From Chitinivibrio alkaliphilus ACht1 (lineage in GTDB: Bacteria > Fibrobacterota > Chitinivibrionia > Chitinivibrionales > Chitinivibrionaceae): a DNA stretch of 64,000 bases. Location of the stretch: NCBI RefSeq assembly GCF_000474745.1, contig NZ_ASJR01000006.1, positions 1-64,000 of the forward strand, written 5' to 3'. The position numbers and the translations under genes were made by a program. Below, piece by piece: positions 13,951-37,693 of the stretch. The first letter of the stretch is position 1; the number at the start of each line of letters is the position of its first letter. The notes under the pieces were generated by a model. It searched no databases and was not told the DNA's origin. It saw only the letters and a program-made list of their open reading frames with translations.

Positions 13951-14027
<77 letters not shown>

Positions 14028-14147: not shown

Positions 14148-14179
14148 AAAAAAAGGTCTCTTTTAAAAGAGACCTTTTT
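14148..14179. terminator. Bidirectional terminator between tRNA-fMet and rpsT
   Basis: An almost fully symmetric hairpin with the stem GGTCTC/GAGACC extended by A/T pairs on both sides. It is flanked by an A-run on the left and a T-run on the right, so it can end transcripts from both the tRNA and the convergent rpsT. Confidence 0.88.
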
Positions 14180-19929: not shown

Positions 19930-20607
19930 CTAAAACAGTAACTGTTGTATGAATCGTTGAAACTCAAGAGGAAGCAGTACGGTGTTCCACAGGTTAAACC
20001 AAGGAAGAAATAGAGGTCGAATAATTAGCTGAGAGAAAAAGGGATACCCAAACCACTCCAGTAAAAGCAGGACAAGAAATATCTTGGGCAGCTCACGGGA
20101 GTAGCGTGCGTACGTAAGGGCTTTTTGTTGCGGAAGAACTCCTGTGAGAACAGTGTAGCCGTCAAGGGGCGCTATGGGAAGCAGATTGAACAAGGCAAGA
20201 CCAAGACTTATAATGTATAAGAGCAAAAGAAATATAATAAGGTGACTCATTCCCTGCGAAGCTGCTGCCGCCCCTCCTCCCATGGAAATAGCCCGAAGCC
20301 CGAATCCAACAAAAACAGCAGTTGTTATATTCGACAAAGGTCCGGCTAATGCCACTTTAACCATATCTTTACGGGGCGATGTAAGCAGTTGTGGCTGCAC
20401 CGGTACAGGCTTTGCCCACCCTATCGGGCCAAAGAACAGCATAAGTGTTCCCAGAAATGATAAGTGCGGAAGTGGATTAAGAGTGAGTCGTCCTGCATGA
20501 GCAGCTGTGGGGTCACCATTTTTATAGGCAACAAATCCATGGGCATATTCATGCACTGTCAAGGCAATGAGTATTGCGGGTATTCTCAGGATGGTAAAGA
20601 TATCCAT
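19930..20607 (-). CDS. M50-family intramembrane zinc protease
   Basis: A 225-residue polytopic membrane protease of the site-2 family (YwhC/SpoIVFB-like group). The zinc motif HEYAH is in the first helix at about residues 19-23 and the Asp motif LLPIAPLDGY is in a late helix. No PDZ domain is present, unlike RseP. It follows secDF on the same strand but after a hairpin, so may be partly independent. Substrate unknown. Confidence 0.88.
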   Translation of the reverse strand: MDIFTILRIPAILIALTVHEYAHGFVAYKNGDPTAAHAGRLTLNPLPHLSFLGTLMLFFGPIGWAKPVPVQPQLLTSPRKDMVKVALAGPLSNITTAVFVGFGLRAISMGGGAAAASQGMSHLIIFLLLLYIISLGLALFNLLPIAPLDGYTVLTGVLPQQKALTYARYSRELPKIFLVLLLLEWFGYPFFSQLIIRPLFLPWFNLWNTVLLPLEFQRFIQQLLF

Positions 20608-20629
20608 TGGGAAGCATGCCTTTTAAAGT

Positions 20630-20653
20630 CCGGGGCTCATAAAAGAGCCCCGG
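20630..20653 (-). terminator. Hairpin after secF
   Basis: A perfect nine-base-pair GC-rich stem (20630-20638 with 20645-20653) directly before the secF stop on the right side and before the M50 start on the left. The minus-strand tail has only three Ts, so it may attenuate rather than fully terminate. Confidence 0.6.
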
Positions 20654-20662
20654 AGGAGTGTA

Positions 20663-21592
20663 TTATTTATCAATGGGCCATTTCTTATTTAACTGAATAA
20701 GCACTGGTGTGGCAATAAAAATTGAGGAGTATGTCCCTGCAATTACCCCCACCAGCAAGGCGGCAGAAAAATATTTTAGTACATTTTCTGTTGGGAGAAA
20801 TGTAACAAATATTGAGGTTACCACAAACAGAGTGGTAATAGAGGTGATAACTGTTCGTGACAAGGTTTGATTTACACTAATATTGAGCGTGTCAGACAAG
20901 CTAAGAGATTTGTCTTTATGCTCATTAAGATTCTCCCGGATACGATCAAAAAGAACAATAGTATCATTGAGCGAGTATCCCACAATAGTCAGTATTGCCG
21001 CGATAACGGGAAGAGATATCTCCCAATTAAATATTGAGAAAATACCTATGGTAATAATGATGTCATGGACAAGGGCAGCTATGGCGCCGATACCGTATGC
21101 GAGCTTAAACCGGAAAGCCACATATAAGATGATTACCAATAGGGAAAAGGCAATTGCCTTGAAGGCATTTGCCGTAAGTTCCCGTCCAACACGGGGGCCA
21201 ACAACCTCGGCGGAAATTTCACGATTATGGAGTAGGTTCGGATAGATATCCTGTAATTCTGAAAGTATAGATTCACGGACTTCCGCTGCATCATGTTCTC
21301 CCTGACTTACAATAATCTGAAGATATGCCGCATCAGCATCTGAAAGGGTTTTGAGTTCATAGTCTGCGAACTGCATTGTTGCAATACGCTCTTCTACTCG
21401 TTCCCGGTGCTCTGCGATATCATCAGTATCAAAGGGTATCGTGAGGCTTACACCACCGGTAAAATCGATACCAAAGTTTGGGCCTCCACGGAGAATAAGG
21501 GAGGTGCACGTAAGAAGAATCAGAAGTGCAGAAAAAATAAGTGCACTTTTGCGTTTTCCAATAAAATTAATATTAAAATTTGTCGTATACAT
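20663..21592 (-). CDS. secF: Protein translocase subunit SecF
   Basis: Forms with SecD the proton- or sodium-driven motor that pulls exported proteins through SecYEG. The 309-residue protein has the N-terminal helix, FGIDFTGGVSLTIPF, the periplasmic P4 domain, and the C-terminal five-helix RND core including ALVHDIIITIGIF and GYSLNDTIVLFDRIREN. GAAGG precedes the ATG; it follows secD by 15 bases. Confidence 0.96.
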   Translation of the reverse strand: MYTTNFNINFIGKRKSALIFSALLILLTCTSLILRGGPNFGIDFTGGVSLTIPFDTDDIAEHRERVEERIATMQFADYELKTLSDADAAYLQIIVSQGEHDAAEVRESILSELQDIYPNLLHNREISAEVVGPRVGRELTANAFKAIAFSLLVIILYVAFRFKLAYGIGAIAALVHDIIITIGIFSIFNWEISLPVIAAILTIVGYSLNDTIVLFDRIRENLNEHKDKSLSLSDTLNISVNQTLSRTVITSITTLFVVTSIFVTFLPTENVLKYFSAALLVGVIAGTYSSIFIATPVLIQLNKKWPIDK

Positions 21593-21607
21593 AAACTATA
21601 CCTTCAC

Positions 21608-23320
21608 TTAAATGCTGAGTTTTTTAAGGGCGTTCTTTTTTCCAAGGTAGTCAATTACAAAATGGTATACCATTTTTGTAAAGACAAGGGCTGTGAATAG
21701 AGATACAAAGATCCCGCTGATAAGCGTAACAGCGAATCCGCGAATTGGTCCCGACCCAACTTGATAGAGAATAAAGGCGGTAAAAAGGGTTGTAATATTG
21801 GCATCCATAATGGCAACAAAGGCTCGGTCGTAGCCCATATCAATCGCCTTAGATACGGTCTTGCCAGCTACCAATTCTTCCTTAATCCGTTCAAAGACAA
21901 TTACATTTGCATCTACGGACATACCGATGATCAATATGAGACCTGCTATACCGGGGAGAGTAAGGGTTGCACCAAAACTTGCCATGATTGCAATTACTAA
22001 GATTAAATTCAGAAGAAGGGCGCATACTGCAAGAAGCCCGGAAAGTTTATAATAGAAGACCATAAAGAGCAATACCATGGCAAGGCCAAAAAGAGCTGCA
22101 TTGAGAGCTCTTCGAACTGCATCTCGCCCGAGAGATGGTCCCACCGTTGTTGCTTGTTCTACCACAAGCGGGGCATCAAGGTCGCCCGATTCAAGCACAA
22201 TAGCCAGTTGCTGGGCTTCTTCCCGCGAGAAATTTCCCGTAATTGAAGCTCTCCCAGAGGGGATACGCTCATTAATGTTTGGGGCAGAGTAGACAGTGTT
22301 GTCTAAGACGATAGCAAGTTGCCGTCCCGTATTTCTCCCCGTAACCCGACCAAACTCACGAGCACCACGAGGGTTGAATTGAAGTGATACTTGGTAACCG
22401 ATTCCCTGATGTGCAGGCATTGCTTCTGCTCGTTCAAGATCCTTGCCGCCCATACTGGGTTCTGCCGTAAGGTAGTAGAGACGATAAATCGGGCTTCCAT
22501 TTTCTGCACGAAGTGTATCGGTTCGTCCACCTTGTTGGCGAATTTCGGGAATGTTGCTCCATCGAAAAACGCCACCTTGCAATGCTCTTTGTACCCCAGG
22601 GAGAGCTAAGATAGAGTCAATGCGTGGTTTGGCAGAAGCAGGGGCCTGTGCGCTCATCTCATCGATATGGTAGATAAGATCGGAAAAGGTTGCGGTATAC
22701 TCATCGTCGGCAAGATCTTCAAGATCCTCTTCCGCTACAGGTTCATCGTCCAATAGGTCCAGCTCATCAAGTTCGTCTAACTCATCTGCAGGAAGGTCTT
22801 CTTCAGCACCGCGATGATCTGCCACCGCCAGGGCTCGGTCAACATTGTCCAGTATTTGTTGAATGCGTTGATTTTCGTTGGATCGTACTAGGTGAAAATT
22901 AAGCTGGGCTGCTCGAGAGAGCATGTCGCGGGCTATTTCTTCATCACTGAGTCCGGGAAGTTCGACAATAAGGCGTTCATTTCCTTCTATCTGAATAATT
23001 GGCTCTGTCAGACCCAAGGCATTCACACGGTTTTCTACAACGGTGTAGACCCGATTCATGAGATTTTCGTCTTGGCGGATTCGTTCTTTTTCTTCCTCGG
23101 TTGCATGAGAGGTGTCTATACCGAGGACCATGCGAATACCACCCTGTATGTCAAGGCCGAGATTCAGGATTTGCCCACCCAGCCGAGGGTTTTCGCGAAG
23201 CATTTCTTGCTGCACCTCGGGAGATTCACGATACACCCTGAATGAGGGAATAAGAAATGCAACGGCCATTACACAGAACAGCAACGTAAATAGTAAACCC
23301 CAAATGTTGCTTTTTTTCAT
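21608..23320 (-). CDS. secD: Protein translocase subunit SecD
   Basis: SecD partner of SecF, 570 residues. It has GLDIQGGIRMVLGID, the P1 head domain, GRASITGNFSREEAQQLA and the RND core with GMSVDANVIVFERIKEE. Residues about 172-207 in the P1 domain are an acidic insertion (31 residues rich in Asp, Glu and Leu) not normally present. AAAGG precedes the ATG. It heads the secDF pair. Confidence 0.96.
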   Translation of the reverse strand: MKKSNIWGLLFTLLFCVMAVAFLIPSFRVYRESPEVQQEMLRENPRLGGQILNLGLDIQGGIRMVLGIDTSHATEEEKERIRQDENLMNRVYTVVENRVNALGLTEPIIQIEGNERLIVELPGLSDEEIARDMLSRAAQLNFHLVRSNENQRIQQILDNVDRALAVADHRGAEEDLPADELDELDELDLLDDEPVAEEDLEDLADDEYTATFSDLIYHIDEMSAQAPASAKPRIDSILALPGVQRALQGGVFRWSNIPEIRQQGGRTDTLRAENGSPIYRLYYLTAEPSMGGKDLERAEAMPAHQGIGYQVSLQFNPRGAREFGRVTGRNTGRQLAIVLDNTVYSAPNINERIPSGRASITGNFSREEAQQLAIVLESGDLDAPLVVEQATTVGPSLGRDAVRRALNAALFGLAMVLLFMVFYYKLSGLLAVCALLLNLILVIAIMASFGATLTLPGIAGLILIIGMSVDANVIVFERIKEELVAGKTVSKAIDMGYDRAFVAIMDANITTLFTAFILYQVGSGPIRGFAVTLISGIFVSLFTALVFTKMVYHFVIDYLGKKNALKKLSI

Positions 23321-23413
23321 AGTGTACCTTTCATAAAACTGTTGAGTTTGTCAAATAATGTGGTAAAATACATTCACTTTCTCTGTATATTCAATAGGAG
23401 GTCTTAAAAACTT

Positions 23414-24628
23414 CTATGTGTGATATTCAGCATTGATTTTTACATAGTCGTAACTGAAATCGCAGGTATGTGCCACCGCATGAGTTTTGTGGGCAGAGCC
23501 GAGATCTATTTCAATGGTTACCGCTTTCGTTTTGAGATGCTGAGAAAGCTGTTCCGGGGAGAAATCGGTTGGTCTTCCCTGGGAAAAAACCACGGTGTCA
23601 GCCAAGGTTACGGTAATATCCTTTTCACGGCATTCGGCACCGCTATACCCAATAGCACAGAGAATTCTTCCCCAGTTTGGGTCGTTGCCAAAGAGGGCTG
23701 TTTTTACAAGGTTAGAATTTGCCACAGCCCGTGCTGCCATGCGGCAGTCATCAAAGGTGTTTCCTCCGTAAACATGAATTTCTACACGCTTAGTTGCCCC
23801 CTCTCCATCTGCTGCTATTTTTGCGCATAGAGCATTGTAAACGGTAAAAAGAGCACTTTGCATAATTTCAAGATCTTTTTCGCAAGAGATGCGAATCTTT
23901 GATTGACCATTGGCAAGGGTTAATACCATGTCATTTGTGGAGGTGTCACCATCAACCGTAAGATTGTTAAATGTCATCTCCACAGCTCGTTTATGCAAAT
24001 AGTTTAAGTCGTCTGGAGCAATCTCGACATCGCTTGTGATGAAACCGAGCATGGTCGCCATATTTGGTTGAATCATTCCAGCCCCCTTGCATACTCCGCC
24101 TATTCGGGCAGTGCCGGTAGAAAATTCAACCTCTATGGCATACTCTTTTTCCACAGTGTCCGTGGTGAGAATTGCCTGTGCAAAGTCAGTTGACCCCTCT
24201 GGCATGAGAGCTGCTACAGCATGGGGCGCTGCATCGCAAATACGTTCAACGGGTAAATATTCACCAATAACGCCGGTGGAGGCAGTAAGGATTTCTTCTG
24301 GAGCTATGGACAGTTTTTGGGCAAAGGTTTCGGTGATGGTGGCTACATCGTCAAAGCCACGTGATCCTGTGCATGCATTGGCGTTTCCGCTATTACAAAA
24401 TACAGCCCGGATATTCTCTGCCGGGACTTTACTCCGGTTGATTTGCACACAGGGAGCGCAAATACGATTTTGCGTAAATGAGCCTACTGCAACAGCGGGG
24501 TGACTACTGCAGAGAAGCCCCATGTCTGTTTTGTTTGATTGTTTTATGCCGGCTTTGCTGCCACTTGCTGTAAATCCAGCGGGGGCAGTAATTCCCCCAG
24601 GTATTTCCGTGTAGGTGATTTTTCGCAC
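23414..24628 (-). CDS. argJ: Ornithine acetyltransferase / glutamate N-acetyltransferase
   Basis: ArgJ recycles the acetyl group in arginine synthesis. The 404-residue precursor self-cleaves before a Thr nucleophile; the motif GMIQPNMATMLGF places it at Thr 192. NSGNANACTG and GDPNWGRILCAIGYSG are further hallmarks. A GTG start has GGAGG five bases upstream. The C-terminus IDLGSAHKTHAVAHTCDFSYDYVKINAEYHT is typical. It is divergent from the LysM gene and no other arg gene is adjacent. Confidence 0.96.
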   Translation of the reverse strand: MRKITYTEIPGGITAPAGFTASGSKAGIKQSNKTDMGLLCSSHPAVAVGSFTQNRICAPCVQINRSKVPAENIRAVFCNSGNANACTGSRGFDDVATITETFAQKLSIAPEEILTASTGVIGEYLPVERICDAAPHAVAALMPEGSTDFAQAILTTDTVEKEYAIEVEFSTGTARIGGVCKGAGMIQPNMATMLGFITSDVEIAPDDLNYLHKRAVEMTFNNLTVDGDTSTNDMVLTLANGQSKIRISCEKDLEIMQSALFTVYNALCAKIAADGEGATKRVEIHVYGGNTFDDCRMAARAVANSNLVKTALFGNDPNWGRILCAIGYSGAECREKDITVTLADTVVFSQGRPTDFSPEQLSQHLKTKAVTIEIDLGSAHKTHAVAHTCDFSYDYVKINAEYHT

Positions 24629-24725
24629 TAAACCTCCATGGTCACTCTTTTTTATGGGTTATAAAATAACAGTTGTAAAACAAAAGGGGTATTATATAAT
24701 TTATTTACAAACACAGGAGTATCCT

Positions 24726-25769
24726 ATGCGTAATAGCTTATTACTATGTCTTTTTACAGTGTGTGCGCTCACTGCTTACGAGTATCGGATTGAGCCCTTT
24801 GATAATCTTTGGAATCTGTCCAAGCAGTATTATGGGGACGGATTTCGTTGGGAGAAGATCTGGGAGCATAATCCCTACATCCAAAATCCTCATCTTATTT
24901 ACCCCAACGATATTGTATACATTCCCGGTGTAGGGCATGTACAAAACGGTACGGTTATTCGTGACGACGAAGGAAACTATCGAGGAGACTCCTTTGCAGA
25001 AGCTGTAGCAGGGTTACGTGCAACCTCCGCAGAAAATATGTCACAGGGAACGGATCACCCTACTTCTTCTTTCTGGCTGCGAAGTGAAGCACCAGCGGCC
25101 TTTGACTTCATGCAACACCCGTTCTTTTCTCATCGAATCCCTACCATTGCGCAGGGGGAAGAATCAAAGGCGGGTGAAGTGTTGTTGCGACGAGACATGG
25201 GTACAGCACGGCACAGAACTATTCCTGTACGCTTCAACAACCATGAAGATGTTACAGAAGGGCAGTATTATTATCTTGTTGACACTGAGGATACTTTCCG
25301 CCATGCAGGGTTGGGGCGTGGCCGGGTGGTTCAGCCTGTTGGTTTTGGACAGGTTGTACAGGTTGGTGATACCCCCGAGGATACCTCCTATGTGCAGGTA
25401 GAGGCAAATTGGGAAGTGGTTTCGCGAAACAGCAAGCTTGCACCTTTTTCTCCAGACGCATCAGTACGTCTTACCGGCGACTTTGAATCTGTTGATTCTG
25501 TAAAAGCTGGCCTTGTTACTCGTTTGCGTACAAGCCCTCTGGTGCATCCTTACGAATTTATTCTTGTTGATCAGGGAGCTGAGGGAGGAGTCTCCATGGG
25601 CGATCTTTTTTCCTTGCGGGATCTCCGTTCAGGCCGAGAGGATCAACAAAAAATAGTAGCAGTAGCTGTGTCTGTACAGGATGATACGGCGACCCTCTTC
25701 GTTATTCATGTTGGTGCGGCAGAACCTATTGAAGATTTTACCTTTGTCCGTTTTGGAAATATTAAATAA
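24726..25769 (+). CDS. Secreted LysM-domain protein
   Basis: A 347-residue exported protein. The ATG at 24726 has AGGAG six bases upstream and yields a signal peptide (NSLLLCLFTVCALTA). A LysM-like peptidoglycan-binding domain follows directly: YRIEPFDNLWNLSKQYYGDG to NDIVYIPG. The rest is beta-rich without a recognised catalytic domain, including repeated GDFESV and VSMGDLFSLRDL stretches seen in other LysM proteins of unknown role. It is single and divergent from argJ; a pair of palindromes follows. Confidence 0.8.
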   Translation: MRNSLLLCLFTVCALTAYEYRIEPFDNLWNLSKQYYGDGFRWEKIWEHNPYIQNPHLIYPNDIVYIPGVGHVQNGTVIRDDEGNYRGDSFAEAVAGLRATSAENMSQGTDHPTSSFWLRSEAPAAFDFMQHPFFSHRIPTIAQGEESKAGEVLLRRDMGTARHRTIPVRFNNHEDVTEGQYYYLVDTEDTFRHAGLGRGRVVQPVGFGQVVQVGDTPEDTSYVQVEANWEVVSRNSKLAPFSPDASVRLTGDFESVDSVKAGLVTRLRTSPLVHPYEFILVDQGAEGGVSMGDLFSLRDLRSGREDQQKIVAVAVSVQDDTATLFVIHVGAAEPIEDFTFVRFGNIK

Positions 25770-25800
25770 GGAAACCTCCGCTCTTCCGCCTTGTTTCTAT

Positions 25801-25843
25801 GCTGTGCAGTAATATATATTGCACAGCTGTATATTTTATACAG
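25801..25843. promoter_or_regulatory. Two abutting inverted repeats ahead of the sigma factor gene
   Basis: A stem of eight pairs (25801-25808 with 25820-25827, loop 11) is joined by one shared base to a perfect seven-base inverted repeat (25827-25833 with 25837-25843). A third partial copy, TTGTGCAG, lies just downstream. There is no T-tract, which argues against a plain terminator and for operators or an RNA structure. Confidence 0.5.
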
Positions 25844-25928
25844 TAAGGTTGTGCAGTTTTCCTTACTAAAAGGGAGTGCTGTACGTAATTAAGAACCGTA
25901 AACAAATCTCAAAATAAAATGGTAGGGT

Positions 25929-26795
25929 ATGGCAAAAAAGAATGATAAAAGCATGTTCTTTGTAGAGGAGGGAAGCCTCGGTTTATATCTCAAGGACATT
26001 GCCAAACATGAGTCTCTCACTCAGAAGGAAGAGCAGGAGTGTGCTCGTCGTATTCGGAAGGGTGATAAAAAAGCGGTAGAAACGTTGGTTCGAGCAAATC
26101 TCCGTTTTGTTGTCAGTGTTGCTCGTAACTATCAGAATCAGGGGATGCCCTTGGCAGATCTCATAAATGAAGGTAACCTTGGGTTGATTCGTGCTGCCTA
26201 TCGCTTTGATGAAAAGAAAAATTTTAAATTTATTTCCTACGCTGTATGGTGGATTCGTCAAGCCATATTGCAAGGTCTTGCGGATCATTCACGAATTGTG
26301 AAGGTTCCCTTGAATCGGGTTGCTACAATTCATAAAGTGGGAAAAGCCCGAGTGCGTTTAGAGCAAAAATATCGTCGTTTGCCCAACGACAAGGAGATTG
26401 CTGACGAACTTGATATTCCCGAAAAAGAAGTGACCTCGACACTTAAAATCAGCAATCGTCACGCCTCTCTTGATTCTCCCATTAAAGATGAGAATGGCGG
26501 AAGCCTCTTTGATATTATTGGGAATGAAGATGTTGAAGATACTGATCAGCGTGCCATGGATACTTCAATTACACGGGAAGTGAAAAAAGTTCTTGAAAGC
26601 CTTACGGAGCGTGAGCAAAACGTGGTATGCATGTATTTTGGTATCAATGAAGATACGAATTACACCTTGGAAGAGATTGGTCAGCAATTGCAGATTACTC
26701 GTGAGCGGGTGCGTCAAATTAAAGATGCGGCATTGCGCAAGCTCCGGCGCTCGGGGAAGGCGCAGAAGCTTATCAAAAATGCCTTGTTTTCGTAA
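25929..26795 (+). CDS. Primary-type RNA polymerase sigma factor
   Basis: A 288-residue sigma-70 family factor. It begins directly with region 1.2 (GSLGLYLKDIAKHESLT), then region 2 (NLRFVVSVARNYQNQGMPLADLINEGNLGLIRA and KFISYAVWWIRQAI, the -10 reading helix), region 3 and region 4 (TLEEIGQQLQITRERVRQIKDAALRKLR). It lacks the acidic region 1.1, like the primary sigma of Bacteroidetes and Fibrobacter, so it is probably the housekeeping RpoD/SigA. Weak GGTAGGG-like ribosome site before the ATG. It starts a run of three more plus-strand genes. Confidence 0.93.
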   Translation: MAKKNDKSMFFVEEGSLGLYLKDIAKHESLTQKEEQECARRIRKGDKKAVETLVRANLRFVVSVARNYQNQGMPLADLINEGNLGLIRAAYRFDEKKNFKFISYAVWWIRQAILQGLADHSRIVKVPLNRVATIHKVGKARVRLEQKYRRLPNDKEIADELDIPEKEVTSTLKISNRHASLDSPIKDENGGSLFDIIGNEDVEDTDQRAMDTSITREVKKVLESLTEREQNVVCMYFGINEDTNYTLEEIGQQLQITRERVRQIKDAALRKLRRSGKAQKLIKNALFS

Positions 26796-26828
26796 GAAAT
26801 CAGTTGATTCTGCTGGGTACGTTGTGCT

Positions 26829-27383
26829 ATGAAGCGTATTCTTAGCATCTTGTTGCTTTTTATGGCGTGGGGGTGTGGGGCCTCGGTGGATCCTCCTGAA
26901 GAGGAGGTGCTTTCTCTTTTTTTGCATGATATATCATCTGTGCCGTCTCTCTATTCATATCAATACGATGATTCTCTTCAACATCTCAGTGATGAGGCTG
27001 TATGGGAGTGGTATCGGCATGTTCGGTTCACGGCAATTGACTATCATGAGCAGGGTGAACATGCTTTAGCGGCAGCATTTCGCCTGAAGGCGGCAGAAGC
27101 TATGGTGCATTTGCATCGTGTTGATATTGCTGCATGGCAATTTAATAATGCGGGCAAACATTTACTCGATCTTTTCGAAGATGCCAAATCTCAGCATAGT
27201 GATGTCTCTATGGATGAGCTCCGTGATACCTACGGTATTTTTCTGACCTTAGCAAATCTCTATTTTACTACCGCCCATGAATTTACGTATTCTGCGCCAG
27301 ATAGGGAGCGATCCCGAGTGATTGCGGCAAATCGTGCGTATTTAAAAAATATGGGTGTGGAACAACGGAAGGATTCTTTGTGA
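26829..27383 (+). CDS. Lipoprotein, helical, uncharacterised
   Basis: A 184-residue lipoprotein with lipobox WGCG (Cys 16) at the end of a hydrophobic signal. The mature part is helical, with TPR-like stretches such as GEHALAAAFRLKAAEAMVHL and FLTLANLYFTTAHEF. It starts 33 bases after the sigma factor gene and its TGA overlaps the next GTG start, so it is likely part of that operon. No family recognised. Confidence 0.65.
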   Translation: MKRILSILLLFMAWGCGASVDPPEEEVLSLFLHDISSVPSLYSYQYDDSLQHLSDEAVWEWYRHVRFTAIDYHEQGEHALAAAFRLKAAEAMVHLHRVDIAAWQFNNAGKHLLDLFEDAKSQHSDVSMDELRDTYGIFLTLANLYFTTAHEFTYSAPDRERSRVIAANRAYLKNMGVEQRKDSL

Positions 27384-27982
27384 AACTCTTTGTCAATTTT
27401 ATAACACTTTTGCGGTTACCATGTATATCTGCTGTGGTGATACTCAATCTTTTTTGGAACCCCGTTGAGTATCCTGCTATCTTTATTTCCACCTTGGTTT
27501 TAATCGCTCTCTGCGGCATAACAGATTATCTTGATGGGTATTTGGCACGACGTTTTTCTGTGGAAAGTAATTTTGGAGCCCATGCAGATCCCCTGTTAGA
27601 TAAGTTGTTTTTTACAGGTATCTTCCCCGTACTTGTTTTTTTGGCCGCCTTAAATTGTGATACCTTCCATGCTCTTTTACTCGTTTTAACGACTGTGGTG
27701 TTTTCATTTCGCGATCAACTTGTTTCTTTTTTCAGAATGATTGGAGATCGTCAAGGTATTTCGCCTCGAGCATCAATGTGGGGTAAGTTGCGTACTGCAA
27801 CGGCATTTCCCGGAATTATTCTTATCTATTCGTATCTTGGGTTTCCCCATGAATATGGTTCTTTTTTCGTTCCCCGCGGTTTTATTATTGCTGTAGAAAT
27901 GTATCTTATTACGGTAACCTTGGTGACATTTTTCCTCTATCTCGTACAATATTTTCCTGCCTTGCGTAGGGAAATGGAGTAA
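27380..27982 (+). CDS. CDP-alcohol phosphatidyltransferase
   Basis: A 200-residue membrane enzyme transferring a phosphatidyl group from CDP-diacylglycerol to an alcohol. The complete catalytic motif DYLDGYLARRFSVESNFG...DPLLD (D-x2-DG-x2-AR-x8-G-x3-D-x3-D) is present near residues 48-75, with about six helices. The family includes PgsA (phosphatidylglycerophosphate synthase) and is likely that here, though acceptor is not certain. A GTG start overlaps the preceding stop. Confidence 0.85.
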   Translation: MKLFVNFITLLRLPCISAVVILNLFWNPVEYPAIFISTLVLIALCGITDYLDGYLARRFSVESNFGAHADPLLDKLFFTGIFPVLVFLAALNCDTFHALLLVLTTVVFSFRDQLVSFFRMIGDRQGISPRASMWGKLRTATAFPGIILIYSYLGFPHEYGSFFVPRGFIIAVEMYLITVTLVTFFLYLVQYFPALRREME

Positions 27983-27984
27983 GG

Positions 27985-28770
27985 GTGGAGTTTCTTACAT
28001 CCTCCGAGACGTTTCTTCTTGATCTTGATGGAACGCTCTATCTTTCTGGTGAGGTGTTACCCGGGGCGTGTGAGTTTGTACACCGCTTACATAAATCAGG
28101 ACGTTCATTTTTTTACCTCACGAATAATTCTTCAACCTCTCCCTCGGTGTATGAAAAGAAGCTGATTTCTTTAGGATTTCCCGTGCCCCCCAATACGGTA
28201 CTTACCTCAGGAACTGCAGCAGCCCTTTTTCTTACTCGGCATTATGCGCAGTCGCGTATTGCCGTGGTTGGTACACAGGCCTTGCGTCAGCAACTTTCTT
28301 CGGCAGGTTTGTCTATATATACCGAACCCTCTCACGCAGATGTGCTTCTCATGGGATATGACACGGAGATTACCTACGATAAAATTCGATGGGCATGTGG
28401 GATCGTTGATCGCGGCATTCCCTTCTTTGCCACACACGAAGATCGCCTTTGTCCGCATCGGTTGGGGTGTTTTCTCCCTGACTGTGGAGCGATGACCAAT
28501 TTAATTACTGAAGCGACCGGGGTAGAACCAACATATTTAGGTAAGCCCCATCAAGCCATGATTGACCTCGTATTTCGGTACTGCAATACCGTTCCGGGAA
28601 AGATTACCCTTGTTGGTGATCGTCTCTATACCGATATTGCCATGGCACATTCTGCGAAGATGAACTCTCTTCTGGTTCTTACGGGTGAAACAAAATTAGC
28701 CCCGAGCACTGGTCGATATCTGCCTTCAGGCGTTGTAGAAAATCTTCATAAAGCATGTGCGTATATATAA
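27985..28770 (+). CDS. HAD-IIA family phosphatase (NagD-like)
   Basis: A 261-residue haloacid dehalogenase hydrolase. Motif I is FLLDLDGTLYLSG, motif II YLTNNSST, and motif IV LVGDRLYTDIAMA; the C2 cap between them marks subclass IIA (NagD/4-nitrophenylphosphatase). Such enzymes dephosphorylate nucleotides, sugar phosphates or glycerol phosphate; next to a phosphatidyltransferase, a glycerophosphate-type substrate is possible but unproven. GTG start two bases after the previous stop, GGAG upstream. Confidence 0.88.
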   Translation: MEFLTSSETFLLDLDGTLYLSGEVLPGACEFVHRLHKSGRSFFYLTNNSSTSPSVYEKKLISLGFPVPPNTVLTSGTAAALFLTRHYAQSRIAVVGTQALRQQLSSAGLSIYTEPSHADVLLMGYDTEITYDKIRWACGIVDRGIPFFATHEDRLCPHRLGCFLPDCGAMTNLITEATGVEPTYLGKPHQAMIDLVFRYCNTVPGKITLVGDRLYTDIAMAHSAKMNSLLVLTGETKLAPSTGRYLPSGVVENLHKACAYI

Positions 28771-28800
28771 AAAAGGTCCCCTTTCTACAGAAAGGGGACC
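28769..28800 (-). terminator. Rho-independent terminator, minus strand
   Basis: A perfect ten-base-pair stem (28775-28784 with 28791-28800), six-base loop, followed on the minus strand by six Ts. It is about 190 bases after rnfB, the only minus-strand gene reading towards it, and could also end a small RNA starting in this gap. Confidence 0.82.
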
Positions 28801-28832
28801 CAAAAGGCTCAAAGGAGGTAAACAGCCTTTTG
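28801..28832. ncRNA. Hairpin with Shine-Dalgarno/anti-Shine-Dalgarno loop, possible small RNA
   Basis: A nine-base-pair perfect stem (28801-28809 with 28824-28832) presents a 14-base loop. On the plus strand the loop holds AAAGGAGGT, a perfect Shine-Dalgarno; on the minus strand it is ACCTCCTTT, identical to the 3' tail of 16S rRNA. It directly precedes the minus-strand terminator. No ORF with a standard start lies at a fitting distance on the plus strand. A small RNA, possibly processed from the rnf transcript, is inferred. Confidence 0.35.
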
Positions 28833-28991
28833 AGAGGTCTATCACAGAGGACACCCATAAGCTATCTGCAAAGGATATTTTTTGCTTAAAAAAAAGCAAA
28901 TTAAAAAAAGTATCAACTTTTCGTAGAAAAAAGTAAAGAGAGATGCTGGTGGTGTGTTTCTAGAGACGCGTCACACAGGATGATACCATGC

Positions 28992-30011
28992 TTATCTTCC
29001 CCGAATCGATCTGTTTTGACGAATACCAACACTGCCCCACATGGAAATTGCGTCAACGGGACATACCTTAATACATCTTCCGCACCCTATACATTTTGTT
29101 TTATGTACAATATGTCTTTCTTGATCTGTACCGGTAATGGCTCCTTTTACTGGACAGATACGAACACACTCACCACATCCGATACAGGCTGTACTAATAT
29201 TTGCCTTGGGACGACTCTGTATATGATCAGAAAAACAGTTTGAGGGGCATTTATAGGCAGAGGTAAGGAAGTTTTCTTCCGTGGTATAATCTAGGCGTGG
29301 TAAATTGTCTTTCATGACAGCAGATCCGGGAATTTCAACTGCTTTTACGCAGAGTGTGCAAGCGGTACACCCAACAGAGCAGTATTTTTTAACACGGCCT
29401 CCACGGTCTTTGTTATTACAGGCGATAAAGATATTTCGACTTTTCGGCATCATCATAATAATAGAACGAGGACAGGTAGACACACATGCTTCGCAACCAG
29501 TACATTTATCAGGATCAATATAGGCAATGCCTGTATCAGTGATGGTAATAGCTTCAAATTCACACGCTTTTACGCATGAGCCAAGGCCAAAACAGCCGTA
29601 CAGACACTCCTTAGAACCATGGGCTACAAGTTCTGCAGCGTTGCAATCAGGGAGTCCATCATAGACTGCGCGTTCTACGGATCTATCTTTCCCTCCTTTA
29701 CATTGCACAACTGCCTTATACTCTTCCATTTCCTGTGCTGTTACGCCCACAATTTCTGCTACTGCCTGAGCTACGTCGTTTCCTCCGGCGATACATCCGG
29801 TGACCGGTGCCTCTCCTGAAACAACCGCCTTCGCGAATTGTGCACAGCCGGCATAGCCACATGCCCCGCAATTTGTTTGTGGTAATACGGCATCAACTTT
29901 TTCTACAGCAGGGTCTTCTCGAACGTGTAATTTTTTGGCACTGATACTGAGGGTAAGCCCGAAAAAGAGGCCCAAAGTACTGAGTATTATAAGTGGCGTA
30001 ATCACTGACAT
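28992..30011 (-). CDS. rnfB: Rnf complex subunit B
   Basis: The ferredoxin-accepting iron-sulfur subunit of the Rnf ferredoxin:NAD oxidoreductase, which couples electron flow to Na+ or H+ export. It has a membrane-anchor helix, then the NCGACGYAGC cluster motif, a split ferredoxin domain (CTGCEACVSTCP with CTACTLC) and a C-terminal pair CIGCGECVRICP and CIGCGRCIKVCP. The 339-residue length indicates the longer form with additional clusters. AAAAGGAT lies very close to the ATG, so a GTG two codons on is an alternative start. Last gene of rnfCDGEAB. Confidence 0.95.
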   Translation of the reverse strand: MSVITPLIILSTLGLFFGLTLSISAKKLHVREDPAVEKVDAVLPQTNCGACGYAGCAQFAKAVVSGEAPVTGCIAGGNDVAQAVAEIVGVTAQEMEEYKAVVQCKGGKDRSVERAVYDGLPDCNAAELVAHGSKECLYGCFGLGSCVKACEFEAITITDTGIAYIDPDKCTGCEACVSTCPRSIIMMMPKSRNIFIACNNKDRGGRVKKYCSVGCTACTLCVKAVEIPGSAVMKDNLPRLDYTTEENFLTSAYKCPSNCFSDHIQSRPKANISTACIGCGECVRICPVKGAITGTDQERHIVHKTKCIGCGRCIKVCPVDAISMWGSVGIRQNRSIRGR

Positions 30012-30020
30012 ATCCTTTTG

Positions 30021-30641
30021 TTAAAAACTCATTCCGGAAAAACCGAGGAAGGCAATGGAGAGTAATCCCGCGGTGATGAATGCAATGGGTAGCCCTTCAA
30101 ATGGTTTGGGAATTGGGTCGAGCTCTATTTTTTCACGAATTCCAGCCATTAACACTAGGGCAAGGGTAAATCCTCCCCCGGACATAAAGGCATTTACCAA
30201 GGCTTCGAAAAAGGTAAAAGATTCTGTGGAAGCTGTGAAATTATTCGGACCGAGATTAATAATGGTAACCCCGAGGATGGCACAATTTGTTGTGATAAGA
30301 GGAAGGAAGACCCCAAGTGATTCATACAGAATAGGGGAGTGCTTCTTAAGAATCATTTCAACCAGCTGCACAATGGAGGCAATAACGAGAATGAACACAA
30401 CAGTTTGAAGAAATACCGTATCCGATGTCTCCAATACAAAGGAGTAAATAGGCCAGGTAAACAGGGTGGCGATAGTCATAACAAAAATAACAGCCATACC
30501 CATGCCTGAAGCGGTGGAAAGTTTTTTTGAAACCCCCATAAAAGGGCAGAGACCAAGAAACTTTGTTAATACAAAATTTTCTATGAAGATTGCTCCCACA
30601 GATATTTGCAGAACCCGGATAAATAGATCTACCATATCCAT
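30021..30641 (-). CDS. rnfA: Rnf complex subunit A
   Basis: A 206-residue integral membrane subunit with six helices, homologous to RnfE and NqrE. FIENFVLTKFLGLCPFMGVSKK and LITTNCAILGVTIIN hold the Cys residues that bind the intramembrane cluster shared by A and E. AAGGAG precedes the ATG, which overlaps the rnfE stop (TAATG). It lies between rnfE and rnfB. Confidence 0.96.
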   Translation of the reverse strand: MDMVDLFIRVLQISVGAIFIENFVLTKFLGLCPFMGVSKKLSTASGMGMAVIFVMTIATLFTWPIYSFVLETSDTVFLQTVVFILVIASIVQLVEMILKKHSPILYESLGVFLPLITTNCAILGVTIINLGPNNFTASTESFTFFEALVNAFMSGGGFTLALVLMAGIREKIELDPIPKPFEGLPIAFITAGLLSIAFLGFSGMSF

Positions 30642-31246
30642 TAATGCAACTCCTTATTTCTCAATTTGTATGCCCGTATACCGGCAATAATAAACCCGAT
30701 TGTGAAAAAACCTCCTGGTGCAAGAATAAACAGTGTCATCGGTTCAAAGGAGGGGATAATCTCAATCCCCCAAAGTGTATTTGCGCCAAGGAGTTCACGA
30801 ATTGAACTGATACATACGAGACCGATTGTAAATCCAGCACCCATTACCAGAGCATCAATAATAGAAGAAAATATTCCGTGTTTTGATGCAAAGGCTTCTG
30901 CCCTGCCAAGAATAAGGCAATTTACAACAATAAGGGGGATAAAAATACCAAGACGTTCATTTAACGCCGGAAAATAGGCTCCCATAACGAGCTGAACAAT
31001 GGTTACAAAGGTGGCTATAATTATGATATAGCAGGGAATACGTATTTCCGTTGGTATTACATTTTTTATGAGAGAAACGATTGTATTTGCCGCAAGAAGG
31101 ACAAAGGTTGTCGCAAGCCCCATGCCCAAGCCGTTTTCAAGGGAGGTTGATACCCCTAGGGCAGGACAAAGCCCAAGGGCGAGGGTGAAAATTGGATTTT
31201 CCTCAAGGATCCCCCGTTTTAACTCGGAGATGATCTTATTTCCCAT
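30641..31246 (-). CDS. rnfE: Rnf complex subunit E
   Basis: A 201-residue membrane subunit paired with RnfA. NPIFTLALGLCPALGVSTS and LIVVNCLILGRAEAFASK are the paired family motifs, with the cluster Cys residues. The ATG at 31246 is preferred over the TTG at 31264 because AAAGG lies eight bases upstream and the protein then starts in the usual place. It overlaps the end of rnfG. Confidence 0.95.
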   Translation of the reverse strand: MGNKIISELKRGILEENPIFTLALGLCPALGVSTSLENGLGMGLATTFVLLAANTIVSLIKNVIPTEIRIPCYIIIIATFVTIVQLVMGAYFPALNERLGIFIPLIVVNCLILGRAEAFASKHGIFSSIIDALVMGAGFTIGLVCISSIRELLGANTLWGIEIIPSFEPMTLFILAPGGFFTIGFIIAGIRAYKLRNKELH

Positions 31247-31919
31247 GGGAAGAACCTTTCTCAAGAAGTTTAGAATGCAATTCTACTGGTGTAGTGAATA
31301 GAGAAGAGAGAACAGCTTCAGTTGAAATAGTAGCACCGGTAATGACCGTAATTGTATTGGTGTCACGTAGATGTTCCTGTTCTGTTTGAGAAAGAGATGG
31401 CCATTCAGAGGAAGAACGATCCGCCGTAATCTGAGAGGTGACGGAGAGACCGGTAAATTGATCAGTAAACCATGGCGTTGGAGCACGCTCTGCTGAATCT
31501 CTCCCCAATAGGATATCCATCATAGTACGCGAAGAGGGAATTTCGGAAATTCGCGCGCCAAGGCCGGGGGTTTCTTCATGGGAAAGTATTGACATACCGG
31601 TAATGTCACCCGATGGGCTAATTCCCACAAGATATTCAATCGCACCTGCGTAGCCCTGAGTTGTTTCTGAAAAGATATACGCTGCAAGGGTATCACCATG
31701 TAAAACGGTCCAGTATTCATGGAGTGAGTCCTTATACTGTACGGTATCATGGATAATTGAGTCGTATTCAGGAGCAACTTGGCGAAGGGCTTCCTGTTCC
31801 TGTTCTTGGCGTAATTCATACATTTGTGGCGCGGTAGAACGGTTTACAAAGGCGATGGAAAGAGCAGATATGGCTGAAATGACCATGAGGGTTAAGCTGA
31901 GGTGCAGAATCTTATTCAT
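31236..31919 (-). CDS. rnfG: Rnf complex subunit G (covalent FMN)
   Basis: A 227-residue subunit with one N-terminal membrane helix and a periplasmic FMN-binding domain. The flavin is attached through a phosphoester to Thr in the S/T-GAT motif, here VITGATIST. GARISEIP is also conserved. Start ATG 31919 has GGAGG before it; it overlaps the end of rnfD. Confidence 0.94.
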   Translation of the reverse strand: MNKILHLSLTLMVISAISALSIAFVNRSTAPQMYELRQEQEQEALRQVAPEYDSIIHDTVQYKDSLHEYWTVLHGDTLAAYIFSETTQGYAGAIEYLVGISPSGDITGMSILSHEETPGLGARISEIPSSRTMMDILLGRDSAERAPTPWFTDQFTGLSVTSQITADRSSSEWPSLSQTEQEHLRDTNTITVITGATISTEAVLSSLFTTPVELHSKLLEKGSSHGK

Positions 31920-32931
31920 GGTTTCCTCCATAGCCATAGACACGCGGCTTCATATATCGGTCAATAAGAGGTGTGAGGCCATTCATGAGAAGTATCGCAT
32001 AGGTTACCCCTTCAGGGTATCCACCAAATTGACGGATAAGAAAGGTTAGGAGGCCACAGCCGAAGGCAAACACCGTTTGTCCCTTTGCTGTAATGGGCGA
32101 GGTTACCATATCCGTCGCCATGAAAAATGCTCCAATGAGGAGACTTCCCGCCAGCACATGGTATAGTGAAAAATATAATACTTCTGGTGAGAAAAATTCA
32201 TAATTACTTTGCAGTGGAGTGATCCCATAGGTGAGAAAAAAAACGGTTCCTACAAAGACAAAGGGTATTCGTACAGTAATGATTTTACGAAAAATAAGAT
32301 AAATTCCCCCTATGCAGAGGGCAAGGGCTGAAACTTCACCAAGAGAGCCATTTACTGATCCCCAAAAAAGAGAGGGAAGAGCGTCAAAGGCGTGAGAAGC
32401 TGAAAGAGATGAAGAGGCTTCAAGGGGAGTTGCTCCGGTAAAGGCATCAATGGTTGAGGGGGGGGCTGGAATACGACCTCCCATTCCTGCTGATAGATAG
32501 GCACTTCCTGTGGTAAGAGCTGGGTAGCTTGCTACAAGAAAAGCCCGGCCTGCAAGGGCTGGATTCATGATATTGCCACCAAGTCCCCCAAATACCCATT
32601 TTACCACGGCAATGGCAAAAATGTTTCCCAAGGCGATTATCCAAAGAGGGGTACTTACCGGAAGAGAGAGGGCTAAGAGAACGGAGGTTATAACAGCGCT
32701 TTTATCAGAAACTGTACTGGTTCTACGAAGAAGTTTTGTACAGATAAAATGCTCCGTGATACCACCACAAAGCACACTGAAAAAGAGTAGAAAAAGAGCT
32801 CGTGCGCCGAAAAAATACGCGCTTGCTACGATTGCGGGTATCAAAGCAATAAGGACATCACCCATAATTGTCGATACAGATCGAACATCGCGAATATGGG
32901 GGGAGGAAGAAATATGGTGCTTCTGATTCAT
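31912..32931 (-). CDS. rnfD: Rnf complex subunit D (covalent FMN)
   Basis: A 339-residue membrane subunit homologous to NqrB, with about nine helices. The covalent FMN site is DAFTGATPL. GGLGGNIMNPALAGRAFL is a family hallmark. The ATG overlaps the rnfC stop (ATGA), and the gene continues into rnfG with an eight-base overlap. Confidence 0.96.
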   Translation of the reverse strand: MNQKHHISSSPHIRDVRSVSTIMGDVLIALIPAIVASAYFFGARALFLLFFSVLCGGITEHFICTKLLRRTSTVSDKSAVITSVLLALSLPVSTPLWIIALGNIFAIAVVKWVFGGLGGNIMNPALAGRAFLVASYPALTTGSAYLSAGMGGRIPAPPSTIDAFTGATPLEASSSLSASHAFDALPSLFWGSVNGSLGEVSALALCIGGIYLIFRKIITVRIPFVFVGTVFFLTYGITPLQSNYEFFSPEVLYFSLYHVLAGSLLIGAFFMATDMVTSPITAKGQTVFAFGCGLLTFLIRQFGGYPEGVTYAILLMNGLTPLIDRYMKPRVYGYGGNHE

Positions 32932-34256
32932 AGCGTTCTATTATTTTCCTTTAAGGTCTGTTTACCAAGTTTAATTGCATGGACAATATTAATTTTTGAC
33001 GGACAGGTAAAGGTACAACATCCGCAATCAATACAGTCAGTAATGTGGGCTTCTTCAAGGGCATCAAACCGTTCGTTCTCAACAAATTTTGCAAAATGAG
33101 AGGGGACGAGCCTCATGGGGCATGCTTTGACACAGTTTCCACAGTTGATGCACGGAGCACTTTGTTGGGCGGGAGTTTTCTCTGGCAGACAGAGAACTCC
33201 CGAGGTTGATTTTAAAATGGGAGCCCGAAGATCAGCAAGGGCAAGTCCCATCATGGGGCCACCGAGTATCACCTTTGATGTTGCCGAAAGATCCGCCTCA
33301 CACTGCGATACGATGTCTTGTACTGGAGTTCCAACGGGGATTCGATAATTTCCCGGTTTCTGCACAGTTGGCCCTGTTACGGTAACAATACGTTCAACAA
33401 GGGGTTTACCAAGAAGAACCGCATCATGGATTGCCTTTGCTGTTCCTGTATTTAAAACCACCGTTTGAACAGCCAAGGGGAGTTTTCCGTGGGGAACTTC
33501 TCTTCCTGTGAGTGCTGAGATAAGTTGCTTTTCTCCTCCTTGGGGATATTTTGTTTCAAGAGGGACAAGCTCTATAAAAGAGTACCGAGATGAGCGCTTT
33601 ATGGCCCGTGAAAGGGCAGATATGGCTTCGGGTTTATTTTTCTCAATGCCGATAATCGTTTGTTCTGTATCAAGAATGCGCTTTGCTATGGCTACACCGT
33701 GGAGAAACTCTTCGGTATTCTCAAGCATGAGTCGATAGTCTGCAGTAAGATAGGGTTCACACTCCGCTGCGTTAATGAGCAAGGTATCTATATTCACGCC
33801 CGGTGGAGGGGTGAGTTTCACCGCCGTGGGAAAACTTGCCCCGCCTTTCCCGATAATACCCGCTTCCGAAATCCGTTGTATTAATACATCTGAAGCAGTT
33901 TCGTGCCAATTATGAATTGGCGGTAAGGTAACTTCGGTGTCGGAAAAGTCGTTCTCTATTTCTACGGTAGTAATGGTATTTCCCGCAGGATGAGGATAGG
34001 TAGCTACCTTGACAACAGTACCCGATATGGAACTATGAACCGGCGCAGAAATCTTTCCCCCTGCTTCACCGATACAGGCTCCTTTGCGTACGGTATCGCC
34101 TTTTTTAACTAAGACGCGAGCAGGAGCCCCAATGTGCATTACCATTGGTATGAATACACGAGCGGGAGCAGGAAAAGTGGTGGTTTTCTCAGTAGCCGTA
34201 TCTTTACAGTCGGGTGGATGTATTCCGCCGCGAAACGTTTTTTTTCTAAAAAACAA
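32928..34256 (-). CDS. rnfC: Rnf complex subunit C
   Basis: The NADH-binding peripheral subunit, 442 residues. It contains IGKGGASFPTAVKL (NADH/FMN site, complex I 51-kDa-like fold), an SLBB region and two [4Fe-4S] motifs CINCGNCVKACP and CIDCGCCTFTCP. A TTG start at 34256 has GGAG seven bases upstream. It is the first gene of rnfCDGEAB, the gene order usual in clostridia and related anaerobes; the DJ-1 gene sits just upstream. Confidence 0.95.
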   Translation of the reverse strand: MFFRKKTFRGGIHPPDCKDTATEKTTTFPAPARVFIPMVMHIGAPARVLVKKGDTVRKGACIGEAGGKISAPVHSSISGTVVKVATYPHPAGNTITTVEIENDFSDTEVTLPPIHNWHETASDVLIQRISEAGIIGKGGASFPTAVKLTPPPGVNIDTLLINAAECEPYLTADYRLMLENTEEFLHGVAIAKRILDTEQTIIGIEKNKPEAISALSRAIKRSSRYSFIELVPLETKYPQGGEKQLISALTGREVPHGKLPLAVQTVVLNTGTAKAIHDAVLLGKPLVERIVTVTGPTVQKPGNYRIPVGTPVQDIVSQCEADLSATSKVILGGPMMGLALADLRAPILKSTSGVLCLPEKTPAQQSAPCINCGNCVKACPMRLVPSHFAKFVENERFDALEEAHITDCIDCGCCTFTCPSKINIVHAIKLGKQTLKENNRTL

Positions 34257-34272
34257 GGAAAATCTCCAGGAT

Positions 34273-34824
34273 TTATGGGGTATAGAGCAGTGCCTTTGCT
34301 AAGGAGCTACTTGTTTCTACATCACAGAGTGTCTCCACAATGGAAAGGGAAAAGGCAAGGGCCGTGGCCGGCCCGCGTGACGTAATTAGAATGCCATCAT
34401 GAACTACGGGGTCAGTCGTATGAGTTCCCGATGAAATACGTTCTTCAATGCCGGGGTAGCAGGTGTATCGTGCAGAACCGATAACCCCTGCTGCATCAAG
34501 GACCTGCGGGGCAGCACAGATTGCACAGCAGAGCTTTTGTCGTCCTGCATGCTGGGCGACCATGTCCAATAGCTCCCTGTTTTCTATCAGGTGCTTTGTG
34601 CCGGGGCCCCCTGGAAGCACTATCGCATCGTAGGTAGTATGGCGTATTTTTTTTACGACCGTATCACAGACGATCTGAACACCGTGAGCGCCGGTTACTT
34701 TTTTCGAGGAGAGCCCTGCCCGGGTAACACCAATACCAGCCCGGTCTAAAACGTCCATGGGAGTAATTGCTTCGATCTCTTCAAAGTTATCAGCGAGGAT
34801 TACTAAGGCTTGTTTCTTCGTCAT
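34273..34824 (-). CDS. DJ-1/PfpI-family protein (YajL-like)
   Basis: A 183-residue class I glutamine amidotransferase-like protein. DNFEEIEAITPMDVLDRAG at the N-terminus holds the conserved Glu, and KLCCAICAAPQVLDAAGV holds the nucleophile-elbow Cys. Known members act as chaperones, deglycases or in oxidative protection; the exact role is debated. GGACGG precedes the ATG. It ends 16 bases before rnfC and might be cotranscribed. Confidence 0.9.
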   Translation of the reverse strand: MTKKQALVILADNFEEIEAITPMDVLDRAGIGVTRAGLSSKKVTGAHGVQIVCDTVVKKIRHTTYDAIVLPGGPGTKHLIENRELLDMVAQHAGRQKLCCAICAAPQVLDAAGVIGSARYTCYPGIEERISSGTHTTDPVVHDGILITSRGPATALAFSLSIVETLCDVETSSSLAKALLYTP

Positions 34825-34886
34825 GGGTTCCGTCCTAAGGCAAGTCTTGTACAGTGAGGGGGAAGTGCCTGCAGATACATACAGTG

Positions 34887-35219
34887 TTAGGTTCGATTTT
34901 TGAATTCTTCAAAATCTTTATATATCGTGATTCGTTGAGGAAGCCGAACAGTCTCGAATATCTTTGATATGGGTTCATTCGCCCCAAAAACGCAGACATA
35001 CCCACCTTTTTGGGAAATACTTTTATGGGCAGTGATAATTTTACCCAAGGCACTTGAATCAAGAAAGGGAACATTTGAAACATCTATGGCAAGAAGGGGA
35101 TGATCCATTTCAAGGGCTTGATCTATTATTTTTTGGAATGTATTTACTTTTTTAATTGTAAAAGCACCGTGCAAGGATGCAACGATCCAATTATTTACCG
35201 TGGTTGTCGAAATTTCCAT
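34887..35219 (-). CDS. STAS-domain anti-sigma factor antagonist
   Basis: A 110-residue STAS-domain protein (SpoIIAA/RsbV-like). The phosphorylatable serine motif is VPFLDSSALGKI, with Ser at about position 56. The ATG at 35219 has GGAGG five bases upstream. Such proteins bind anti-sigma kinases in partner-switching systems; no kinase or phosphatase gene is next to it. It is transcribed between comEC and DJ-1. Confidence 0.88.
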   Translation of the reverse strand: MEISTTTVNNWIVASLHGAFTIKKVNTFQKIIDQALEMDHPLLAIDVSNVPFLDSSALGKIITAHKSISQKGGYVCVFGANEPISKIFETVRLPQRITIYKDFEEFKNRT

Positions 35220-35263
35220 AAGCACCTCCGTTATTCACTGCAAATAATATAATGTGCTCACTC

Positions 35264-37171: not shown

Positions 37172-37241
37172 GATGGTTGCAAAAATATGTATCTATGATA
37201 ATATACACGTTGTTGGTAGAAAAATACATACGAGGTAAAAA

Positions 37242-37598
37242 ATGAAAGTATTACTGGTAGATGATTCCAACACCATGCGGAGAATACAGGCAAATCAATT
37301 GAAGCAGCTTGGTGTTGATGATGTCGTTCAGGCGGAAAATGGTAAAGAGGCATTACAAAAATTGTCAGAGAATATGCCCATTGATGTAATGCTTCTTGAC
37401 TGGAATATGCCTGTTATGGACGGGTATGAATGTCTTAAGGCCGTACGCGGAGACAGTACGTATAAAAATGTTCGTATTTTTATGTGTACGTCTGAGTCTG
37501 AGAAGTCAAATGTGGTACAGGCCTTGAAAGCTGGTGCAAACAACTACATCGTGAAGCCCTTTACTCCTGACGTCCTGAAAGAAAAGATCGGTTTATAA
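37242..37598 (+). CDS. CheY-like single-domain response regulator
   Basis: A 118-residue receiver. VDDSNTMRR supplies the acidic metal pair, MLLDWNMPVMDG the phosphorylated Asp (about residue 52), CTSESE the switch Thr/Ser and IVKPF the Lys. A CheY-type chemotaxis output or two-component shuttle is likely. AGG precedes the ATG. It is monocistronic with a strong terminator right behind. Confidence 0.93.
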   Translation: MKVLLVDDSNTMRRIQANQLKQLGVDDVVQAENGKEALQKLSENMPIDVMLLDWNMPVMDGYECLKAVRGDSTYKNVRIFMCTSESEKSNVVQALKAGANNYIVKPFTPDVLKEKIGL

Positions 37599-37645
37599 CA
37601 CGGGAGAGGTACGAGATCTTTCTTCACTCTTTCTTTCTCTGTAAG

Positions 37646-37682
37646 GAGACTGTATATTCTGACATATACAGTCTCTTTTTTT
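37646..37682 (+). terminator. Rho-independent terminator after the CheY-like gene
   Basis: A perfect twelve-base-pair stem (37646-37657 or nearby with 37664-37675), six-base loop and seven Ts. It lies just before the polA start. Confidence 0.9.
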
Positions 37683-37693
37683 GAGGATATGCC

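Follow-up and report, generated by a model that had tools for sequence, protein, structure and literature searches.

A 16S rRNA tail mimic at the putative 3' end of an rnf transcript, and a conserved short RNA built on the same plan in a sister family

By analysing a hairpin downstream of rnfB whose loop repeats the tail of the 16S rRNA, we found that it most likely belongs, with a probability of about 0.6, to the double-hairpin 3' end of the rnf mRNA. We also found, in a sister family of the same phylum, a short RNA that is conserved, follows this design and looks able to block ribosome-binding sites. The sister-family case is separate from the first one and has much better support. The sister family (f8) is one that we take to be Fibrobacteraceae, and genus g24 is presumably Fibrobacter, in view of kinship.

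The window is the whole stretch of DNA that was analysed, 64,000 nucleotides long, and the features of the locus within it are the following.

27985..28770, plus strand: HAD-IIA family hydrolase gene (TIGR01460 above cut-off; open reading frame map)
28769..28774, minus strand: T6 run of the terminator (sequence and scan)
28775..28800, minus strand: intrinsic terminator hairpin, 11 bp with a 4-nt loop (fold and terminator scan)
28801..28832, minus strand: 9-bp hairpin with the 14-nt loop GUUUACCUCCUUUG, the 16S-tail mimic (sequence, fold, loop accessibility)
28769..28991, minus strand: presumed 3'UTR of rnfB with both hairpins, probably transcribed (open reading frame map)
28992..30011, minus strand: rnfB (NCBIfam RnfB models, TIGR01944 above cut-off; 34 relatives 47–58% identical)
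30021..30641, minus strand: rnfA, next upstream of rnfB on the same strand (TIGR01943 above cut-off)

The HAD gene is convergent with rnfB and its stop codon abuts the terminator, which reads GGTCCCCTTTC-TACA-GAAAGGGGACC on the plus strand (28775–28800) and runs on the minus strand into six T (28774–28769). The terminator scan returned a 12-pair stem, a loop of 4 and T6 on the minus strand, that is the G+C-rich stem and U run of an intrinsic terminator, and both the fold and the scans place a strong terminator on the minus strand only. Directly 5' of it stands the mimic hairpin, whose arms and loop are CAAAAGGCT-CAAAGGAGGTAAAC-AGCCTTTTG on the plus strand (28801–28832); the 9-mer in its loop (28811–28819) reads AAAGGAGGT on the plus strand and ACCUCCUUU on the minus strand. 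The genome's own 16S tail reads ACACCTCCTTTCT. Since its 16S rRNA ends with ...GGAACACCTCCTTTCT, the mimic is exact over nine bases and the identity with the 16S tail is real. The 9-bp stem with its Shine-Dalgarno (SD)/16S-tail loop and the strong minus-strand terminator joined to it, both described in the initial annotation, are therefore present as claimed. Two further inverted repeats were noticed. First, the A/T-rich repeat TTTGCTT / AAGCAAA lies in the rnfB-HAD intergenic region (window 28880–28905) and adds a weak hairpin to the predicted fold of the minus-strand 3'UTR. Second, a terminator-like 13-bp hairpin, AAAAAGGTCTCTT-TTAA-AAGAGACCTTTTT, is found at window 14150–14179, slightly past the tRNA gene at 13951–14024.

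The predicted fold of the minus strand is clean and consists of two hairpins (-32.3 kcal/mol, z -4.58, none of 200 shuffles as good). The bases of the mimic loop are predicted to be unpaired with probabilities of 0.97–1.0 in the minus-strand 3'UTR and of 0.64–0.99 in a 106-nt context, and the computed complementarity of the loop with its full complement gives a duplex energy of -20.5 kcal/mol. We propose that a polymerase leaving rnfB on the minus strand would produce a 3'UTR of ~220 nt ending in two back-to-back hairpins, of which the distal one (28775–28800), with its U6, would terminate the rnfB transcript, while the proximal one would be an accessory 3'-end stem with a loop equal to the 16S tail. 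An action of this loop on Shine-Dalgarno sequences is unproven, and there may be none at all. Dismissing it could nevertheless be wrong, because the loop is fully accessible, sits at a transcript end and is held by a stem whose length around the 9-mer is expected only 0.08 times in the genome.

The plus strand had been proposed to hold 30S subunits, a claim that is poorly supported here. Read-through RNA from the HAD gene would then expose a strong SD, perfect to the genome's own 16S tail, as a decoy with no proper start, or would open a 19-codon peptide at a TTG. We regard this as highly improbable. The plus-strand fold is ambiguous and the SD is predicted to be only partly exposed (unpaired 0.36–0.96 depending on base and context), because AGCCUUUU is also able to pair with it. 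Moreover, the only start is a TTG 11 nt further on, with a frame of 19 codons that makes a weak small ORF, and the strong first hairpin 5' of the SD may let few transcripts reach it.

How unusual is the window hairpin? The 9-mer itself is hardly enriched: the genome contains 68 copies of AAAGGAGGT and 56 of the reversed control. Only one of the 67 sites outside the 16S tail, the window hairpin alone, is enclosed by a perfect stem of at least 9 bp, and such an enclosure is expected 0.08 times genome-wide as calculated from the window's own background. Likewise, one of the 30 window stems of at least 8 bp carries AGGAGG/CCTCCT in its loop, whereas 40 shuffles averaged 0.05 stems of this sort. 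However, the motif was picked after being seen, so these chance figures overstate significance, and the rarity of the enclosed 9-mer is post hoc, suggestive rather than compelling. The next-best enclosure of the same 9-mer in the genome, a 7-bp stem with a 10-nt loop, falls within a long open frame, in our reading a protein-coding one, which indicates that loops with this 9-mer also arise by chance. The other exact match to the 14-mer (contig C23) was rejected as a candidate, being antisense within a frame read as ABC-transporter-like. Finally, ACCTCC at 20–50 nt from a T6 run showed no enrichment genome-wide (59 matches versus 56 for the control).

We searched for counterparts of the window element at the loci of rnfB relatives, all from outside the window's genus (47–58% protein identity by tblastn). 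These were 34 of the 35 RnfB matches in other genomes that cover at least 298 residues (all but that of G030); the RnfB scan of the genome contigs also returned 6 distant loci, which were left out of the comparison. Downstream of rnfB in these 34 relatives no counterpart was found: 25 stems of at least 7 bp lie within 500 nt, none with a GGAGG/CCTCC loop, while the same scan detected the window hairpin used as control. The HAD neighbour is absent downstream of rnfB at the 34 loci, and on the downstream side of HAD-IIA relatives none of the 29 loci has such a loop. The initial annotation had named a lack of conserved stem pairing in relatives as a refutation, and this check went against the window element: such pairing was found at neither set of loci, and the family models R2 and R3 described below miss the window hairpin as well. 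There is no second copy of the element in its own genome. A repeat or mobile element was rejected on the grounds of this single copy and of a 101-base stretch without match in phages or plasmids; the 26-base core likewise had no match in viral contigs. The window shows that mimic loops can occur without detectable conservation.

No Rfam family reaches its gathering score at the window element. The nearest candidate, suhB/mmgR (RF00519), scores 26.0 bits, below its gathering score of 41, and was rejected; for MmgR, an anti-SD motif in the first loop is described (PMC7143759). Two other places in the window genome score 26.5 and 25.4 with this model, their terminators lacking a 16S-mimic hairpin, and all 60 phylum genomes searched match it with none reaching the cut-off. 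Since equal matches occur elsewhere and sub-cut-off matches occur in every one of the 60 genomes, the likeness to suhB/mmgR is generic. Matches to the PyrR/PyrG leaders were driven by the terminator, stayed below gathering and were also discarded.

These results bear on another possible origin of the hairpin pair, namely that the rnf transcript is processed 5' of 28834 into a 3'UTR-derived sRNA whose ACCUCCUUU loop blocks ribosome-binding sites. The accessible loop, the two-hairpin 3' end and the rarity of the enclosed 9-mer would suit such an sRNA, and the release of the CcsR sRNAs from a protein-gene transcript by RNase E is known in Rhodobacter. Still, nothing downstream of rnfB is conserved in the 34 relatives, the promoter scan found no sigma-70-like promoter on the minus strand, and the suhB/mmgR resemblance lends no specific weight. 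Furthermore, only 7 of the 67 AAAGGAGGT sites sit 4–12 nt before a frame of at least 100 codons, so that perfect 9-nt pairing would act on few genes. We therefore hold this origin to be possible but doubtful, and keep the double-hairpin end of the rnf mRNA as the preferred reading of the window element.

The sister-family RNA came to light with R1, a covariance model of the window hairpin pair made from one sequence given twice. Its weak matches include two g24 loci whose terminator loop is TTACCTCCTTTG (E 0.158 and 0.163, neither significant by itself). The 26-nt core of that hairpin, searched with at most 3 mismatches, turned up in 37 of 167 phylum genomes, all from g24, and its reversed control gave none among the matches listed. 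The model R2, built from 30 of the 37 core-matching g24 loci, matched 95 of these 167 genomes at E<=0.1, of which 85 also pass E<=1e-5. By genus, matches at this stricter level were obtained in g24 (77/80), g34 (3/3), g26 (1/1), g36 (1/1), g37 (1/2) and g28 (2/3), and all six genomes of g29 match weakly (6e-5 to 0.011); none is listed in the single genomes of g31, g32 and g35 or in the 12 of g33, and four weak matches (0.013–0.08) come from other parts of the phylum. Two strong copies occur in G103 only (contigs C72 and C47). We read the loci of 70 of the 95 R2-matching genomes, that is 30 of the 37 core matches plus 40 covering other genera and low scores:

L229–L258 and L289–L328, for example L251:1487–1550 and L289:401–464, both minus strand: sister-family RNA (R2 matches)

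When compared with Rfam 15, four loci of this RNA gave no match at gathering level and three gave none at E<=1, and the pattern of the RNA has no match in viral contigs. No description of such an RNA was found in the Fibrobacter literature covered, which includes few subscription papers.

The RNA is ~55–60 nt long, with a fixed 5' end, CCCAAACACUCCC, followed by a terminator hairpin. The aligned loci have the constant 5' sequence TACCCAAACACTCyC, a 12-bp stem with compensatory changes, a near-constant loop and a T run. The 5' segment CAAACACTC is present in 62 of 70 loci. All 70 loci were chosen as R2 matches, so that the loop counts apply to recognised members: TCCTTT (UCCUUU) in 70, CTCCTTT in 69, CCTCCTTT (RNA CCUCCUUU) in 58 and ACCTCCTTT in 39. 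Among the 59 distinct sequences from these loci, 97.9% of the stem cells pair, 10 of 12 pairs have changed on both sides, and covariation is 0.630 versus 0.249 +/- 0.014 in shuffled and at most 0.271 in slid controls; alignment A3 is biased towards the R2 structure, to which it was fitted, and the structure-free alignment A2 agrees, with 100% pairing and two-sided changes in 3 pairs. Pairwise identity averages 0.67 within the RNA and 0.34 and 0.29 in its two flanks. Folded in isolation, five members each form the single hairpin (z -5.1 to -8.1). Upstream, T-T-A stands at -11 to -9 before CAAACAC in 82–87% of 60 rows, which would suit the -10 box of a promoter starting the RNA at ~ACCC.

A gene for a small membrane protein lies 3' of the RNA in 54 of the 70 loci, all in g24, with 3–120 nt between the end of the model and the start of the gene. 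Neither Pfam nor NCBIfam names this ~130-aa protein (L184:1554–1946, plus strand, and orthologues), whose gene is followed in L184 by a QueH gene. The frequent presence of the membrane-protein gene would also suit, in g24, a cis-acting attenuator of that gene in place of a trans-acting RNA. We examined wider neighbourhoods at 15 of the 16 loci that lack this gene (all but that of G148). Outside g24, and also in some of its species, the RNA stands next to unrelated genes, among them those for arginine decarboxylase, glutaminyl-tRNA synthetase and GlmS, and at 9 of the 15 loci the 3' gene runs in the opposite direction. Such varied and partly opposite-strand neighbours cannot be explained by a cis leader of one gene but can be by a stand-alone RNA, and we consider the attenuator unlikely. 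What the analysis shows of this RNA is its sequence, fold, terminator, covariation, loop constancy and varying neighbours, whereas its transcription, pairing and targets are inferred.

We then compared this RNA with the window hairpin. The CUCCUUU of the sister-family loop is contained in the window loop GUUUACCUCCUUUG, and the 12-nt core UUACCUCCUUUG, nine bases of which are the 16S tail, is common to the window and at least 9 of the 70 sister-family loops. However, in scans of the window, one of them over positions 20000–40000 with filters off, the best match of both R2 and R3 was the plain terminator (E 0.25 and 0.18); the mimic hairpin obtained 8.6 and 8.9 bits (E 5.7 and 1.3). Also, CCCAAACACUC is absent 5' of the window hairpin. 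Across 40 genomes, 39 of the window order (its own included) and one other, R3 gave a best E of 0.06 and no convincing member. Because R2 and R3 fail on the mimic hairpin and R3 finds no convincing member in the order, the window element is not filed in the family. It could be a diverged member whose mimic hairpin moved 5' of the terminator, as the common phylum, the identical loop core and the two family members found by the window-built R1 might suggest; yet the preference of R2 and R3 for the plain terminator, the missing 5' segment, the 39 other genomes (38 of the window order) devoid of a convincing member and the non-significant E-values of R1 make this very unlikely. The covariance search suggested in the initial annotation did uncover a conserved, covarying RNA, of which the window hairpin is not a recognised member. 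Similarly, its view that a 16S-tail loop with a terminator is the layout of a small RNA holds for the family in the same phylum and is doubtful at the window, where no conservation was found in the relatives covered.

The best reading of the sister-family RNA, by analogy with NfeR1, LhrC and B11/6C, is that of an SD-blocking sRNA. Its gene consists of an A/T-rich promoter-like box, a fixed unpaired 5' ACCCAAACACUCCC and the covarying terminator hairpin showing UUACCUCCUUU, and transcription of the ~55–60 nt would start at or near ACCCAAAC. The loop, perhaps with the CU-rich 5' end, would pair with Shine-Dalgarno regions and block 30S binding; its CCUCC, for example, would pair with a AAAGGAGG ribosome-binding site. 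A more speculative extension, to which we give rather low odds, is that the f8 RNA competes (semi-)generally with ribosomes for SDs and that the window genome, where the rnf operon ends, has either come to this device independently or kept it. Beyond a handful of phyla, small RNAs have hardly been described, and a conserved, covarying RNA with a ribosome-tail loop offers a hypothesis, and targets in the form of ribosome-binding sites, in what are presumably cellulose- and chitin-degrading bacteria. If broad competition with 30S subunits for SDs were true, it would be a very small global modulator of translation. The window hairpin, for which no relatives could be detected around its genes, may amount to hardly more than an elaborate end of a transcript.

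The initial annotation knew of no described family of this sort, but the kind is known. First, the alpha-r14/NfeR1 ("cuckoo") RNAs of Alphaproteobacteria carry an anti-SD motif in unpaired hairpin regions that blocks translation initiation and is ultraconserved while the stems vary (PMC10746234). They have three hairpins, each with CCUCCUCCC, whereas the window, in a different phylum and without Rfam match, has a single mimic hairpin with ACCUCCUUU, the 16S tail itself; on the three-hairpin CCUCCUCCC architecture as given there, the window is not an alpha-r14/cuckoo member. Second, CcsR1–4 of Rhodobacter are cut by RNase E from a transcript shared with a protein gene and have a terminator at the 3' end (PMC10253847), but these are four RNAs co-transcribed with a DUF1127 gene, in contrast to one hairpin downstream of rnfB. 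Third, LhrC of Listeria binds lapB mRNA, with a predicted SD block, through CU-rich motifs that lie in one loop and in that of the terminator, where the motif is CUCCC (PMC4132741). The window lacks a CU-rich motif in its terminator loop (UGUA), the motif being in the neighbouring hairpin, while the sister-family RNA has one there; LhrC, however, has three redundant CUCCC sites and five copies, compared with a single site, in the terminator loop, for the sister-family RNA, which is single-copy in nearly all genomes. Fourth, the mycobacterial B11/6C sRNA pairs with ribosome-binding sites through C-rich loops (PMC10470900), these being two cytosine-string loops and no copy of the 16S tail. Thus, sRNAs with anti-Shine-Dalgarno loops are known as a kind, and the sister-family RNA appears to be new as a family.
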